Assembly (NCBI GenBank): GCA_009772965.1
Contig: WPAF01000001.1
Coordinates: 142,894-183,860 of the forward strand
From: Candidatus Saganbacteria bacterium
Lineage (GTDB): Bacteria > Margulisbacteria > WOR-1 > XYC2-FULL-46-14 > WPAF01
Direction of reading: 5' to 3'
Length of the DNA stretch: 40,967 nucleotides
The notes under the pieces are model-generated. The model saw only the letters and a program-made list of their open reading frames with translations, did no database searches and was not told the DNA's origin. Positions 1 to 39,429 of this stretch are shown here, piece after piece. Every line of letters starts with the position of its first letter. Positions within the stretch are counted from its first letter, which is position 1. The position numbers and the translations under genes were made by a program.

Positions 1-299
1 TTTTTTTTATAAATATCACTTATGTCAAACTCGGGCTTATTCGCAACGGCTATAACCCCTTGCGTAGTTATTACAGAAGATAATAGCTCTGTTTCTTGTT
101 TTGATATCTTAATCGTTTTCTTATTTTTATCTTTTACCCATTTAACAAGCGGGCTTTCTTTCGCATACAGCAAAAAACAAATCAGGTCATTTGCTTCCCT
201 GATCAAGCGCTCGCCTTCAATTACAAATTCACTTGCCTTCTTTTTTTTAAGCAAACTCAAGGCAAGCCGAACCTCAGCAATATTGGACGTTGGGTTCAT
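1..299 (-). CDS. SpoU/TrmH-family RNA 2'-O-methyltransferase, N-terminal part (cut by window edge)
   Basis: The visible 99 residues match the substrate-binding domain that precedes the knotted SpoU methyltransferase domain in 23S rRNA and tRNA 2'-O-ribose methyltransferases (RlmB/TrmH type). Key stretches are FVIEGERLIREA at residues 25-36 and TTQGVIAVA at 78-86, the latter corresponding to the usual S-x-T-x-T-P-Q-G-I-x-A-V signature. The SAM-binding trefoil-knot domain lies beyond position 1 and is not seen. The ATG at 299 has no Shine-Dalgarno sequence. A TATAAT box lies exactly 6 nt upstream, so the mRNA is probably leaderless. It diverges from the secreted-protein gene at 358. Which RNA and nucleotide are modified cannot be told from this fragment. 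Confidence 0.8.
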   Translation of the reverse strand, partial: MNPTSNIAEVRLALSLLKKKKASEFVIEGERLIREANDLICFLLYAKESPLVKWVKDKNKKTIKISKQETELLSSVITTQGVIAVANKPEFDISDIYKK

Positions 300-305
300 T
301 GTAAA

Positions 306-334
306 ATTATACACTCAGCAGGTTGCTTTTTCAA
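306..334 (-). promoter_or_regulatory. Sigma-70-type promoter of the rRNA methyltransferase gene (leaderless)
   Basis: On the minus strand a TTGAAA -35 box (334-329), a 17-bp spacer and a perfect TATAAT -10 box (311-306) are followed by six bases and then the ATG at 299. With the normal -10 to +1 distance, transcription would start on the A of the start codon. The -35 box directly abuts the -35 box of the divergent promoter. Confidence 0.75.
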
Positions 335-351
335 TTTAATAATAATAGAAT
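323..351 (+). promoter_or_regulatory. Promoter of the secreted-protein gene (leaderless, GTG at +1)
   Basis: TTGCTT (323-328), a 17-bp spacer and TAGAAT (346-351) are followed by six bases and the GTG start at 358. The spacing is the same as in the divergent promoter, and there is no ribosome-binding site between the -10 box and the start codon. The two -35 boxes are adjacent (323-328 and 329-334), so both genes may share a regulator or compete for polymerase. Confidence 0.6.
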
Positions 352-357
352 TAGGCT

Positions 358-2691
358 GTGAAAAAAACACTTATCTTATTGGCATTCTTGGCGCTTTCTC
401 TAAATGCTAATGGCTTGATATATGAAGATAGCTCAGATAATATTTATCTAATCCACAATAACAAAATAAATGTATCCCAAGACCTTGGCAAAAGCTGGAT
501 CCTCCAAGCGCCAATTTCGGCTGAGGCGGCAATTTGCGAAAGATCCGATAAAAAAGCATTAATCTTTTATGTGTTTAATAATTCGCTCTTTCTAAAGGAT
601 TCAGCCAATCTTAAAGAAAGCAAAAATATATATACTTTCGCATCTTCGCCGGAAAGCAGCTTGGCATATTTAGACAATAATACATTAAATTTATTTTATC
701 TAAAAAACAAATATTTGTTTTATGCTCAATCCACGGATTATGGGAATCTATTCTCACAGCCGCAAGCCATTAATAATAATATTCCGGTTGATTTGTTTTC
801 GGCGGGCGGCAATACTTTAGCCTTTGCTTCAAACAATAGGATATTACTGGTTAAATCAAATAATGGCTGGGAGCTTCCAGCTGAAATATACCAAACCTCC
901 AGCCAAATCCAGGAAATAAAAGTTTACAATAATGATGCCTTTTGGATCGAAAAAGCAAAAGACAACAAATATTCAGTATTTATGCGGCATGGCAATAAAC
1001 AGCAAATCATTCATGAAAGCTATGATCAAATAAAAGGCATAGATTTCCCGGTAAGCAACACTATGTCTTTTTATTTGAATAAGAATAATGTGTCGGTTCC
1101 TTTTTTCCTCACAATTGGAGATAATAATTATTCAAAAGCGCGTCAAGTTAAGGAAACCATGCTGGACGGCGAAGCATACCTGGGTATTATTAGTATTTCT
1201 GATGTTATCTCCTCTGCTTGGATTTATAGGGAAAAAGTTTATTTTGAAAAGCTTAAAAACAATCCTCCCGCAATATTGTCGTTTGATTTTCCTAAATATA
1301 CCAATTTAAAAACATTCAAATATAAAATCGGGGCTATTGACGACGATGCCGATCCAATAAGCTACGGCTTCGAAATATATAAAGAAGCCGGTAAAATCCT
1401 CACAATTTCAACAAGCTCAGCTGAGGGGCAAATATTTACCTCACTCTCTGACGGAAAATACACCATCAAAGCAATCGCAAAGGACGCGGTTTCACAAAGC
1501 ACGCCAACCAATGCCCAGGAAATAAATATTGATACAATCCCGCCATACTTTAAAATAACCGAGCCCGAAAATGGTTCAATCGTTAATATAAATCCAATCT
1601 TGGTTAAGGGGGAAGTGGCTGAAGAGGCAAAAATATCAATTAATTCTGTTTTATTTGAAAGGACAGGATTAACCTTTTCTAAAAGCCAATTTTTAGTAAA
1701 AGGTGAAAATATTATCAGTATCACTCTCACCGACGAGGCCGGGAATTCCGCCCAAGATAAACTAATAATCACTTACAATCCAGACGCGCCAATATTAAAA
1801 GTTAATAAACCGCAAGAAAGCGGCTGGTATAAGGGCGGCTCGACAATTTATCTTGAAGTTGAAACGGCTGATAATGATATTGTCGATGAAACTGAAGTCC
1901 AATTGGCAATTGATGGGCAGGCGCTGGATCAAACCCTTACTTATTACCTGGAGGATAAAAAAGCCAGTGGCTTTGTGAGCCTTCCAAAACTTTCCCAAGG
2001 CATCCACAAGCTGCGGTTTTTGATAAAAGACGCGAATAATAACGCGGGAAGCGCTTTCTACCAGCTAAAAATTGACGCCCTTCCCCCAATGATATCGCAA
2101 AAAGACGCTGTTATGTCATTTGGACAATTAACAATTCCTTTCGAAGAAAAAGAAAGCGGCATAGATATTTCCGGGACAAGCTTAAATATAACTTGCGGGA
2201 GCTCAGAAGTTGCCGGCAAAATAAATCATGAAAATGGAAATATTGTTTTCAAGCCGAAATCAAATTTTTTAAGCTTGCAGTACAAAGTAAGCATCAAGGC
2301 CAGGGATTTGGCTGGCAACATTGCAAATGAAGAATCTTTTACAATCTCGCCAAACAATTCAACCGTTTCAATCCTGCAAAACGCTGGAGAATTGAGTATC
2401 TTATCGCTCATCAACGGACCAAACCCTTTTAGCCCGATAAAAGATATCACCGCAGTTATTAAATATTTATTGTCAAAAACAGGCGATATAAAACTTTTTA
2501 TATATAATATTGATGGGTCGTGCATTTTCATAAAAGAAGTTAAGCAAACTTCATCAGGAAGTGTTTCATGGGATGGCAAAGACTTATTTGGACAAGCCGT
2601 CCCTCAAGGAGTTTATCCATATCTTCTCTTTGCCAAAGATAATATAGGAAAATCTGAAGTTAAGCGCGGAAACATCATTGTGCTTCAGTAA
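358..2691 (+). CDS. Secreted multidomain protein with Asp-box, Ig-like and FlgD-like C-terminal domains
   Basis: This is a 777-residue protein with a clear signal peptide (two lysines, then a hydrophobic stretch at about residues 4-15, ending near ANG at 17-19). The N-terminal half has sialidase-like Asp-box motifs: SQDLGKSW at 40-47 and a weaker STDYGNLF at 125-132, so a beta-propeller is likely. The middle holds Ig-like or cadherin-like segments, for example around DTIPPYF and DEAGNSAQD. The last 95 residues (683-777) resemble the FlgD-type Ig domain, with PNPFSP, then SWDGKDLFGQ and QGVYPY. In other phyla a similar domain serves as a C-terminal sorting or anchoring module. The product is probably cell-surface or extracellular; the ligand is unknown. 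The GTG start fits both the signal peptide and the promoter spacing. Its stop codon overlaps that of the convergent gene at 2685. Confidence 0.7.
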   Translation: MKKTLILLAFLALSLNANGLIYEDSSDNIYLIHNNKINVSQDLGKSWILQAPISAEAAICERSDKKALIFYVFNNSLFLKDSANLKESKNIYTFASSPESSLAYLDNNTLNLFYLKNKYLFYAQSTDYGNLFSQPQAINNNIPVDLFSAGGNTLAFASNNRILLVKSNNGWELPAEIYQTSSQIQEIKVYNNDAFWIEKAKDNKYSVFMRHGNKQQIIHESYDQIKGIDFPVSNTMSFYLNKNNVSVPFFLTIGDNNYSKARQVKETMLDGEAYLGIISISDVISSAWIYREKVYFEKLKNNPPAILSFDFPKYTNLKTFKYKIGAIDDDADPISYGFEIYKEAGKILTISTSSAEGQIFTSLSDGKYTIKAIAKDAVSQSTPTNAQEINIDTIPPYFKITEPENGSIVNINPILVKGEVAEEAKISINSVLFERTGLTFSKSQFLVKGENIISITLTDEAGNSAQDKLIITYNPDAPILKVNKPQESGWYKGGSTIYLEVETADNDIVDETEVQLAIDGQALDQTLTYYLEDKKASGFVSLPKLSQGIHKLRFLIKDANNNAGSAFYQLKIDALPPMISQKDAVMSFGQLTIPFEEKESGIDISGTSLNITCGSSEVAGKINHENGNIVFKPKSNFLSLQYKVSIKARDLAGNIANEESFTISPNNSTVSILQNAGELSILSLINGPNPFSPIKDITAVIKYLLSKTGDIKLFIYNIDGSCIFIKEVKQTSSGSVSWDGKDLFGQAVPQGVYPYLLFAKDNIGKSEVKRGNIIVLQ

Positions 2692-20118: not shown

Positions 20119-21159
20119 TCATTCCTCTAAGGAATCAGATATTTTTCCTTTTAGAATTAAACTGCGGATGTTTTTAAACCAGGCAAAAACATTTTCAAAA
20201 ATAAAATATACTATCGGCTCATAAACTAAATCCATACAGCCAACAAATTTTACCAACTTGCCGTTAAACCCTTTTTTAAACCTCCAGACGCCATATAAAG
20301 GGTGCCCTAGCTTTGGGTTTGATGGTATTCCCCAAAGATCATACAATTCATACCCTTTTGCCCTTTTTATTATTTCCCAATGGATAGCATGGTTTGGCAT
20401 AACATTGCGATGGGAAGATTTTGAGGCTCCGTACATATACCAAATCCTTTTGTTAAAATAAAAATTGATGACTGCGGCGATCGGTTCTTTATTAAGATAT
20501 GCGATAAATACTTTTGCCATATTATTATTTCCCATTAGCGACAATATCTTTTGGTAGTAGCTTTTAGGATGGATTAAAAAATTATCCCTTCCCGCGGTTT
20601 CTTTATACAAATCATAAAAAATATCAACCCCAATCTGGCCGGATAATTCCTCAACAATCACTCCTTTTTTTTGCGACAGGCGGATGTTATAGCGTGTTTT
20701 TTCCTCAAAACTTAAAAGCAAAGTTTCTAAATCTTTTGTTAGGTCAATAAAGTATGTTGAACGAGGCTGTATTTGTTTTTTATTAATCTTGAGGCCTTTT
20801 TTTATGAATAGATCAATTCTATTAGAATCGCTATCTTCAATCTCCGGGTCTATTTTTAAGGCAATCGCGGCATGTTTTTTTGCTTCTTCTTTTATTTTTT
20901 GCAGTAAATACTCGAGAGCTCCGGCATTGTCAAATATTGGGCCTCGGGGGGCATAGAACAAGCATTTATTTATATAGGGAAATTTGCGTTTGAGCAATAA
21001 AATAGAAGCGGAGATGCTATTATTTTCTCCAACTGCTATCCTAATCGGATCCCAACCCTGGGATTTTTTTATCTCTCCCCACTCCCAAGTTTGAAGGATT
21101 TGGGGGGATTTTTCCACAAAGCTGTCCCATTGGTCTTTTGATGCGGTAATAAGTTCCAT
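20119..21159 (-). CDS. FemAB/FemX-like aminoacyltransferase (GNAT fold)
   Basis: This 346-residue protein is of the lipid II:glycine glycyltransferase (FemX/FemAB) type. Typical features are [20 protein letters not shown] at about residues 18-37, [45 protein letters not shown], and the C-terminal [20 protein letters not shown] and LYDLWGIP. Classical members add amino acids to the peptidoglycan precursor using aminoacyl-tRNA; others occur in exopolysaccharide or exosortase-linked loci. It is the first gene of the 17-gene operon, starting 45 nt from the divergent pabA. A TAAAAT box 11 nt before the ATG may be its -10, with no good -35. The true substrate is unknown. Confidence 0.8.
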
Positions 21160-21186
21160 CTTACTAAGTTATTTTATCATTCATCA

Positions 21187-21195
21187 TGTTATAAT
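21187..21195 (+). promoter_or_regulatory. Extended -10 promoter of pabA
   Basis: TGTTATAAT is an extended -10 box (TG, one base, TATAAT). No convincing -35 is seen, as is common with extended -10 promoters. The ATG of pabA lies 9 nt after the -10 box, so the predicted transcript has only about three bases before the start codon and no ribosome-binding site. Confidence 0.6.
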
Positions 21196-21204
21196 TACAG
21201 GGTT

Positions 21205-21774
21205 ATGATTATAATGATTGATAATTACGATTCTTTTACATATAACCTTGTCCAATACTTTATGGAGCTTGGCGAGGAAATTAAAGTCTTTAGAAACGAT
21301 AAAATAACAATTGATGAAATAGAAAAGCTAAAACCGGCAAAAATAGTCATTTCTCCCGGCCCCGGGGAGCCAAAGAACGCAGGCATATCCTGTGAAATTA
21401 TAAAGAGTTTTAAAGGAAAGCTGCCAATTCTTGGAGTCTGCCTTGGGCACCAAAGCATAGGATATGTTTTTGGTGGAAAGATTATCAAGATTATCAAAGC
21501 AAAACAAATTATGCATGGGAAAACTTCAAAAATCCATCATGACGGCAAAACAATTTTTAAAGGGCTGCCAAATCCCTTTATTGCGACCAGATACCATTCC
21601 CTCGTTGTGGAAAGAGAAACATTGCCTGAGGTTTTGCAAATTTCAGCATGGACGGATGATAATGAAATTATGGGATTAAGGCATAGGGAATTTGTTGTCG
21701 AGGGCGTCCAGTTCCACCCGGAATCAATCCTTACTTCTTCGGGGAAGGATCTTTTGAAGAACTTTTTGCTTTAA
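21205..21774 (+). CDS. pabA: Aminodeoxychorismate/anthranilate synthase glutamine amidotransferase subunit
   Basis: This 189-residue class I glutamine amidotransferase releases ammonia from glutamine for the chorismate-amination partner (PabB or TrpE) in folate or tryptophan synthesis. The catalytic triad is visible: Cys79 in GVCLGHQS, and His171 and Glu173 in [14 protein letters not shown] at 49-56 is the oxyanion-loop region. No pabB or trpE is nearby, so which pathway it serves is undecided. Its last 91 bp are repeated at 22376-22466. The present C-terminus (KNFLL, stop) is probably a product of the element inserted after it; the ancestral end would have been [10 protein letters not shown]. 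The truncation loses only about five residues past the active site, so function should be kept. Confidence 0.9.
21678..21768 (+). repeat. 91-bp direct repeat, copy 1 (3' end of pabA)
   Basis: This stretch is identical base for base with 22376-22466. It encodes the last part of PabA, from within GLRHRE through QFHPES to KNFL. Sequences outside the repeat differ at once on both sides. The spacing between copies is 698 bp, with 607 bp of unique sequence between them. Confidence 0.95.
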
Positions 21775-28058: not shown

Positions 28059-28086
28059 TGTTTAATTGCCAATTTATTGATATAAT
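28058..28086 (+). promoter_or_regulatory. Promoter of the DRE-TIM aldolase gene (leaderless)
   Basis: TTGTTT (28058-28063), a 17-bp spacer and TATAAT (28081-28086), with an extended TG at 28078-28079. The ATG follows after exactly six bases. No Shine-Dalgarno sequence exists between the -10 box and the start. Confidence 0.7.
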
Positions 28087-28092
28087 TCTACT

Positions 28093-29049
28093 ATGTATAG
28101 GCCGCAAATAAAAGTACTTGACTGCACAATAAGGGACGGCGGACTTATTAATGACTGCAAATTTGACGACAAATTTGTCAGGGCAGTATATAAGGCTCTT
28201 AACGAATCCGGAGTAGATTATATTGAACTCGGCTACCAGGCCTCAAAAAAAATATTCTCGCCGGATAAATTCGGCAAATGGAAATTCTGCGATGAAGACG
28301 ACCTAAGGGCAGTAACCGAAGGGATAGAAAAAAAAGCCAAGATCTCCGTTATGGTTGACATTGGCCGGGTAGAAAAAAGCGAAGTAAAGCAAAAAAAGGA
28401 CAGCATTGTAGACATGATACGCGTGGCAATGTATGTCAAAGAAGTAGACAAGGCAATTGACCTGGTAAATTACTATTCCGAAAAAGGTTACGAAACCACG
28501 GTAAACATAATGGCAATTTCAACCGCGCTGATGCCCGACCTTGAAGAAGCGCTCGCTCAATTATCAGAGACGCCGGTAAAAGCAGTTTATGTGGTTGATA
28601 GTTTTGGCGCGCTTTTTTCAGAACAAATACACTTTTTAATCGAGAAATATAAAAAATATCTTAATCCAAAAGGCATTGAAGTCGGCATCCATTGCCATAA
28701 TAACCAGCAGCTTGCTTTTGGGAATACAATTGAAGCAATCCGCATGGGAGCAAATTTTATTGACGCCACAATCTTTGGGATTGGAAGAGGCCCGGGCAAT
28801 TGCCCGATGGAGCTTTTGCTTTCTTTCCTTAAAAACCCGAAATTCAAATTAGAGCCGGTTTTGGAAGTAATTGAAAAGGAATTTCTGCCATTAAAAGAAA
28901 AAATGGAATGGGGATATATTCTCCCTTATATGATTACCGGAATACTGAACCAGCACCCCCGCACCGCTATTGCCCTAAGAAACGGAAAAGATAAAGATAA
29001 ATACGCTGACTTTTACCGAAGTTTTTCAAGCAAAGAAGAGATGGATTAG
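28093..29049 (+). CDS. DRE-TIM metallolyase (HMGL-like aldolase domain)
   Basis: This 318-residue protein has the DRE-TIM barrel signatures DCTIRDGG (10-17), VVDSFGAL (167-174), the metal-binding HCHNN (200-204) and GIGRGPGN (229-236). Relatives include 4-hydroxy-2-oxovalerate aldolase, HMG-CoA lyase and isopropylmalate synthase, all of which break or form carbon bonds next to a keto acid. The protein lacks a long C-terminal regulatory domain, so it is nearer to the aldolase group. The acceptor cannot be named. It stands alone on the plus strand between two minus-strand operons. Confidence 0.8.
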   Translation: MYRPQIKVLDCTIRDGGLINDCKFDDKFVRAVYKALNESGVDYIELGYQASKKIFSPDKFGKWKFCDEDDLRAVTEGIEKKAKISVMVDIGRVEKSEVKQKKDSIVDMIRVAMYVKEVDKAIDLVNYYSEKGYETTVNIMAISTALMPDLEEALAQLSETPVKAVYVVDSFGALFSEQIHFLIEKYKKYLNPKGIEVGIHCHNNQQLAFGNTIEAIRMGANFIDATIFGIGRGPGNCPMELLLSFLKNPKFKLEPVLEVIEKEFLPLKEKMEWGYILPYMITGILNQHPRTAIALRNGKDKDKYADFYRSFSSKEEMD

Positions 29050-38618: not shown

Positions 38619-38638
38619 GACACTATCTGACACTATCT
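38619..38638 (+). repeat. Tandem 10-bp repeat in the dfx/ABC divergent promoter region
   Basis: GACACTATCT occurs twice in a row, then GA and the TATAAT box of the ABC operon. One helical turn between copies would put a bound protein on the same face of DNA. It lies upstream of the dfx gene as well. No known regulator is recognised. Confidence 0.7.
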
Positions 38639-38646
38639 GATATAAT
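38638..38646 (+). promoter_or_regulatory. Extended -10 promoter of the ABC exporter (leaderless, GTG at +1)
   Basis: TGATATAAT, followed by six bases and the GTG start at 38653. There is no Shine-Dalgarno sequence. No clear -35 is present; the tandem 10-bp repeat occupies that area. Confidence 0.65.
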
Positions 38647-38652
38647 GATCAT

Positions 38653-39429
38653 GTGGAAATTATTAAAGTTGAAAATCTCTCGCGCCGTTTTAATAAATTC
38701 TTGGCAGTAGATTCAATATCATTTTCAGTGCAGGAGGGCGAGATTTTTGGTTTTCTTGGTCCCAACGGCGCAGGAAAAACAACCACTATCAACATCCTTT
38801 GCACACTGCTCAAGCCAACTTCAGGCAATGCATATGTTTCATGTTGCGACACCACAAAAGAGCCAAATAAAGTACGAAGCCAAATCGGGATAGTTTTTCA
38901 GGACCCCTCCCTTGATGACCGTTTGACCGCGGAAGATAATTTGCGTTTTCATGGCCGCCTATATCATTTAGGTTCTGAGGAAATAAATAAGCGTATCCCT
39001 GAAGTTTTAAATTTAGTTGAATTGTATGACCGGAAAAATGATTTTGTCAGAAAGTTTTCCGGAGGCATGAAGCGGCGTCTGGAGATTGCCCGTGGGCTTA
39101 TGCACCGGCCAAAAATCTTATTTCTTGATGAACCGACATTGGGGCTTGATCCGCAAACCCGGGCACATATTTGGGATTATATTTTAAAGATGAGAAAAGA
39201 AACCAACCTTACAATTTTTATGACTACGCATTACATGCAGGAAGCTGACGTCTGCGATAAGGCCGCAATTATTGACCACGGTAAAATTGCTGATTTAGAC
39301 ACCCCGTTAAATTTGAAATCAAAGTACAACGAACAAACACTAGAAGGGGTGTTTCTAAAAATCACGGGGCGCGAAATCCGTTCCCAGGCCGGAGAATCCG
39401 CCTGGTCACAATGGATGAGGAGAACTTGA
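38653..39429 (+). CDS. ABC-2 type exporter, ATP-binding protein
   Basis: This 258-residue ATPase has Walker A GPNGAGKTTT (36-45), Walker B KILFLDEPTLGLD, the ABC signature FSGGMKRRLEIARGL, and the H-loop in FMTTHYMQEAD. This DrrA/NodI-like class drives export of lipids, polysaccharides or drugs. The start is a GTG at the predicted transcription start. An out-of-frame ATG two bases earlier leads to a short dead end. The stop overlaps the permease start (TGATG). Confidence 0.93.
   Translation: MEIIKVENLSRRFNKFLAVDSISFSVQEGEIFGFLGPNGAGKTTTINILCTLLKPTSGNAYVSCCDTTKEPNKVRSQIGIVFQDPSLDDRLTAEDNLRFHGRLYHLGSEEINKRIPEVLNLVELYDRKNDFVRKFSGGMKRRLEIARGLMHRPKILFLDEPTLGLDPQTRAHIWDYILKMRKETNLTIFMTTHYMQEADVCDKAAIIDHGKIADLDTPLNLKSKYNEQTLEGVFLKITGREIRSQAGESAWSQWMRRT

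Follow-up and report, generated by a model that had tools for sequence, protein, structure and literature searches.

Two putative interlocked divergent promoters, probably of leaderless genes, in a 58-bp intergenic region of a Candidatus Saganbacteria bacterium

Genes and features of the locus

The stretch of DNA analysed here, referred to as the window, is 40,967 nucleotides long and derives from the genome of a Candidatus Saganbacteria bacterium (G000; 1.63 Mb in 63 contigs, 94% complete), where it occupies G000:C31:142894-183860. Near its left end two genes diverge, one reading leftwards from an ATG (A at 299, minus strand) and the other rightwards from a GTG at 358 (plus strand), with a gap of 58 bp, bases 300-357, between them. 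The features of this region, together with three further promoters of the same type found elsewhere in the window, are listed in Table 1.

The minus-strand gene leads a methyltransferase-pheS-pheT cluster which extends to the left of the window; pheS was identified by NCBIfam and pheT by reading the sequence. The piece of the methyltransferase lying within the window is truncated, and its MRM3-like/SpoU substrate-binding domains scored a fraction of a bit under the Pfam cut-off; a full-length relative scored 145.8 bits against the RlmB cut-off of 160. A scaffold gap of 14 Ns is located within this gene, just left of the window (L009:2880-2893). The gene might instead start at an in-frame GTG at 314, which is less likely than the ATG. 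On the plus strand, the GTG at 358 is found two codons past an in-frame TAG and opens a typical signal peptide. The secreted protein has matches in 56 of the 57 genomes searched, chiefly to its FlgD/CHU_C-like C-terminal end, a tail that is probably common to many secreted proteins of the phylum. Neither the plasmid search nor the Rfam scan returned a match.

Table 1. Genes and putative promoter elements in the window (positions are those of the whole stretch)
Feature	Position	Strand	Remarks
SpoU/TrmH-type RNA 2'-O-methyltransferase gene, 5' part	3..299	-	ATG start, A at 299; Pfam
Intergenic region	300..357		Nearly all predicted promoter; each -35 box inside the spacer of the other promoter
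-10 box TATAAT of minus-strand gene	306..311	-	6 nt from ATG
-35 box TTGCTT of plus-strand gene	323..328	+	17-nt spacer; abuts minus-strand -35 box; weak (3/6)
-35 box TTGAAA of minus-strand gene	329..334	-	17-nt spacer to TATAAT
-10 box TAGAAT of plus-strand gene	346..351	+	6 nt from GTG
Gene for 777-aa secreted protein	358..2691	+	GTG start, signal peptide, Ig-like Big_13, FlgD/CHU_C-like C-terminus
Second leaderless-type promoter, TGT-TATAAT	21187..21207	+	9 nt from ATG of class-I glutamine amidotransferase (TrpG/PabA-like) gene
Third leaderless-type promoter, TGA-TATAAT	28078..28095	+	6 nt from ATG of HMGL-like gene (28093), 34 bp from divergent methyltransferase gene
Fourth leaderless-type promoter, TGA-TATAAT	38638..38655	+	6 nt from GTG of ABC transporter ATPase gene (38653), divergent from desulfoferrodoxin gene

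Promoter elements between the two starts

The minus-strand promoter, TTGAAA-17-TATAAT, matches the consensus at 11 of 12 positions, has a spacing within the 16-18 nt of sigma70-type promoters, and was the top site of the promoter scan in the first 2 kb. Its plus-strand counterpart, TTGCTT-17-TAGAAT, agrees with the consensus at five of six positions in the -10 box and at three of six in the -35 box (against TTGACA); the scanner did not list it because its threshold for the -35 box is at least 4/6. The two -35 boxes meet at 328/329. At both starts a TANNNT box, characteristic of TA-led genes when found about 12 bp before the start codon, runs from 12 to 7 nt upstream, and no Shine-Dalgarno signal was seen by eye ahead of either ATG 299 or GTG 358. 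When the 58 bp were shuffled 20,000 times with their dinucleotides kept, a -10 box (at least 5/6) stood 5-9 nt from both ends in 99 shuffles, and -10 boxes accompanied by a -35 box (at least 3/6, at 16-18 nt) on both sides arose in 26. The sequence confirms the gap, the two pairs of boxes with 17-nt spacers and the contact of the -35 boxes as the earlier note had given them; its description of two complete promoters suits the minus strand and is generous for the plus strand, with a -35 box of 3/6.

Conservation of the pair among relatives

In all nine genomes compared from the order the methyltransferase gene and a homolog of the secreted-protein gene are divergent and near each other, with no ORF between them in seven, one in G006 and two in G007. 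The ORFs inserted in the latter two genomes (L036 and L041, respectively) split the shared promoter region. The start codons are 58, 59, 60, 59, 111, 41 and 61 bp apart in G000-G005 and G008, respectively, so that five genomes from three families share a spacing of 58-61 bp. Between G000 and G001 the 58 bp are 80% identical, versus 47% and 40% for the two flanking genes over their first 300 nt. The minus-strand -35 box TTGAAA and the plus-strand -10 box TAGAAT are both retained in the sister genera G001 and G002, and the plus-strand -35 box reads TTGCCA (G001, a better match) and TTGCAT in these genera.

Among 27 genomes with a match to the methyltransferase (the relatives at 29-47% protein identity), 16 have a -10 box (at least 5/6) 5-9 nt ahead of a fitting start and 11 do not, in a count made by eye with a second, partial match (L048) left out. 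By reading, a -10 box is found near the start of the secreted-protein gene in seven of the nine genomes of the order, G004 and G006 being the exceptions, and the leaderless geometry is present on both sides in six of the nine.

Leaderless-type promoters in the genome and the class

The source genome was surveyed using ORFs of at least 100 aa in 859,794 bases, which gave 745 genes, 250 of them operon-leading, with start codons that are crude ORF calls. An exact TATAAT is located 6-9 nt ahead of the start in 28 of the 250 leading genes, and further upstream there is about one match or fewer per position. With -10 boxes of at least 5/6 there are 52 matches at 5-9 nt, as against 22 expected from the background at 20-44 nt, and part of the 52 will be chance matches. 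The -10 box is preceded by TGn in 28 of these 52, compared with 20 of the 110 sites at 20-44 nt and 246 of the 4450 within coding DNA, and a TTG indicative of the -35 box peaks at 16-18 nt. A Shine-Dalgarno-like motif is depleted in the leaderless-type leading genes, where it accompanies 8 of 73, against 75 of the remaining 177 (Fisher, 7e-7).

Strong promoter-like sites at 5-9 nt number 54 of 250 in the source genome (14-19 in control windows). Other members of the class gave 8/29 (G005), 7/43 (G011), 4/40 (G016), 6/40 (G010) and, in a partly masked set, 5/16 (G015). Genomes of the phylum outside the class gave 0/38, 2/30, 2/20, 1/9 and 1/25, and the controls 2/295 among 80 listed loci of other phyla and 1/109 in E. 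coli. Judged by these counts, the habit is evident within the class and faint or doubtful beyond it; on the evidence of sequence, leaderless promoters appear to be a habit of the class to which the source genome belongs. The earlier note's reading of the two promoters as leaderless and back-to-back is accordingly well supported, by the genome-wide statistics as well as by conservation.

Within the window, the TrpG-like gene with the second promoter lies 45 bp from a divergent FemAB-family gene (21159//21205; the pair spans 20119-21774), versus 14 or 17 bp in four relatives. No clear leaderless-type promoter was seen in the window sequence for the minus-strand partners of the genes at 28093 and 38653.

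Other divergent pairs

A -10 box 5-9 nt from the start on both sides was found in 9 of 67 divergent pairs of the source genome, versus 5 of 67 in each of two control windows and 0-5 in a further set of control windows, a modest excess for this genome alone. Five other genomes of the class together gave 9/53 (3 and 2 in control windows), the phylum outgroup 3/28 (0 and 0), a mixed set 0/57, and E. coli 0/28 (one control window, 1/28). Three of the 67 pairs, and none in five control windows, carry an exact TATAAT at both starts. The pairs of the source genome include trpC//rsmH at 17 bp and bioB//BioH-like at 35 bp and, by reading of the proteins, formiminotransferase//deacetylase at 34 bp and aspartokinase//YajQ-like at 70 bp. 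The 58-bp pair of the window is an ordinary member of this leaderless divergent set. In the source genome and the five others of the class, 8 of 17 both-sided pairs have start-to-start distances of 55-62 bp, roughly the distance that would bring two -35 boxes into contact; this bin was picked after looking and one outlier of 2966 bp was left out, so the clustering is suggestive only.

The starts of trpC and rsmH are 14-20 bp apart in 12 of the 13 genomes of the class where the pair was found: the distances are 17, 17, 17 and 14 bp in G000-G003 (L107:948-970 of G000:C49, L236, L238 and L240), 36 bp in G004, and 16-20 bp in the eight genomes of family f7. G000 and G001 have the same sequence in these 17 bp, and in other relatives rsmH adjoins other genes. 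A perfect 20-bp palindrome, CATGTTATAATTATAACATG, with 14 bp between the ATGs, stands between real genes in three genomes of two families (L337, L338 and L339). In G005 these are a PALP-fold, TrpB-like gene and one of the arginase family, and in G022 and G028 they are TrpG-like and FemAB genes; G017 and G023 have 17-bp versions of the TrpG-like//FemAB pair. Most of the palindrome and pair loci compared were hand-picked and do not constitute a sample. In CATGTTATAATTATAACATG, two overlapping extended -10 boxes would drive both genes, each start codon being 6 nt from its own -10 box, with each extended -10 box taking its TG from the final T of the adjacent gene's start codon (read CAT) and the G that follows. 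We incline, by a small measure, to the view that leaderless transcription let divergent genes in this class share minimal two-way promoters, with the 14-bp form of CATGTTATAATTATAACATG as the extreme and the window pair as a less compact version of that design, in which the -35 boxes abut.

The pattern CATGnTATAATn(6|9)ATG was met 62 times (N9) and 117 times (N6) over 57 genomes, versus 1 and 0 for the reversed pattern, palindromic sites being counted on both strands in these sums. We considered that its CAT might usually be the start codon of a neighbouring gene and rejected this: in the fetched loci an ORF of at least 60 aa begins at the CAT in only 8 of 31 cases in the class, part of which may be due to chance, and in 0 of 19 outside it. 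What the patterns chiefly register, within the class and beyond it, is therefore leaderless extended -10 promoters.

Comparison with known systems

Zheng et al. (2011, PMC3160421) reported TA-led genes, whose -10 box lies some 12 bp ahead of the start codon, for 207 of 953 bacterial genomes, and genes with such a -10 motif are put at 30-40% of the genes of Deinococcus-Thermus (PMC12340547); leaderless bacterial genes are also treated in PMC5397173. According to GeneMarkS-2, as cited in PMC9581028, 21.6% of bacterial species are predicted to use leaderless transcription, and the mode is therefore not rare. The promoters of the window resemble those of TA-led and Deinococcus-Thermus genes in that TANNNT or TATAAT lies about 12 bp before the start and would replace a leader with a ribosome-binding site; as presented in PMC3160421 and PMC12340547, these genes belong to phyla other than that of the source genome. 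The word "divergent" has 0 occurrences in the main text of either article, and the passages of PMC9581028 concerned give proportions per genome rather than the packing of divergent pairs. In the open-licence literature searched on leaderless genes of candidate phyla and on leaderless divergent or bidirectional promoters, none of the titles and abstract openings described leaderless promoters shared by divergent bacterial genes, which is weak evidence of novelty.

The bidirectional promoters of E. coli described by Warman et al. (2026, PMC12825309) have starts mostly 18, also 10 or 23, bp apart and a shared -10 box, and five that were tested are reported to compete only when one side is strongly activated. 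The window pair is like them, as far as they are described there, in sending two transcripts outwards from a short piece of DNA on which opposing polymerases cannot both bind. It does not qualify as one of them, since its -10 boxes are separate and its predicted starts, 59 bp apart, are too distant; it is therefore a close back-to-back divergent pair. The trpC//rsmH-type pairs (14-20 bp) and the trpG//FemAB pairs of the relatives resemble, by sequence, the promoters of Warman et al. more closely, but have start codons at their edges.

Interpretation and alternatives

We consider it quite probable that the 58 bp consist of two interlocked, outward-facing sigma70-type promoters, that both mRNAs are leaderless, and that the pair is one case of a lineage-wide habit, with the two promoters likely active together and not forming an inverse switch. 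The sequence, its geometry, its conservation and the genome-wide statistics are direct observations; the mechanism is read from them. Each promoter would make transcription begin on the first codon, or no more than one or two bases from it, and both mRNAs would be translated without a leader. With the leader lost through leaderless transcription, divergent genes could lie as little as 14-70 bp apart. On the 58 bp one polymerase would bind at a time, the two directions taking turns, and both promoters would most likely be jointly active at modest levels, though strong activation of one could reduce the other.

The earlier note had argued that polymerase could hardly sit on both promoters at once and that the two genes may be inversely expressed. 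The former is a reasonable inference because the predicted starts are 59 bp apart and the -35 boxes abut. The latter is not supported. That exclusion goes far enough to express the two genes inversely, as a regulatory switch, is improbable, in spite of this geometry, the 58-61 bp spacing conserved in five genomes of three families, and the competition reported in E. coli once one direction is strongly activated (PMC12825309). The minus side is a housekeeping cluster with pheS-pheT, the pair is 41 bp apart in G005 and 111 bp in G004 with ORFs intervening in G006 and G007, unrelated housekeeping pairs have the same or a tighter layout, and the five E. coli promoters, in the account given, show no basal competition (PMC12825309).

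The abutting -35 boxes form an inverted repeat, TTGN6CAA, on which a shared regulator might control both genes together. The repeat is kept as TTGCTTTTTCAA, TTGCCATTTCAA and TTGCATTTTCAA and, in another family, as TTGATTTATCAA, and the middle of the region is also conserved, but abutting -35 boxes by themselves generate such a repeat, no regulator gene adjoins, and the repeat is missing in G004, G005 and G008; we hold this to be about as improbable as a switch. Less probable still is that the -10-like boxes arose by chance in AT-rich DNA and that transcription starts elsewhere, with ordinary leaders. Lone -10-like hexamers are indeed common at a G+C content of about 39%, but the double arrangement is rare among the shuffles (26 of 20,000), the boxes and their spacing are conserved, and genome-wide TGn is enriched and the Shine-Dalgarno motif depleted.

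Implications

To Deinococcus-Thermus, Actinobacteria and the other groups known for leaderless genes, the present data add a further class that appears to use them habitually; there they also appear to set how divergent genes are packed, with start codons 14-70 bp apart and a promoter filling the whole gap. In this lineage, starts may be wrongly placed by gene finders that rely on Shine-Dalgarno motifs. As minimal two-way promoters supplied by nature, pairs of this kind would suit experiments on the sharing of DNA between polymerases and on leaderless initiation by 70S ribosomes.
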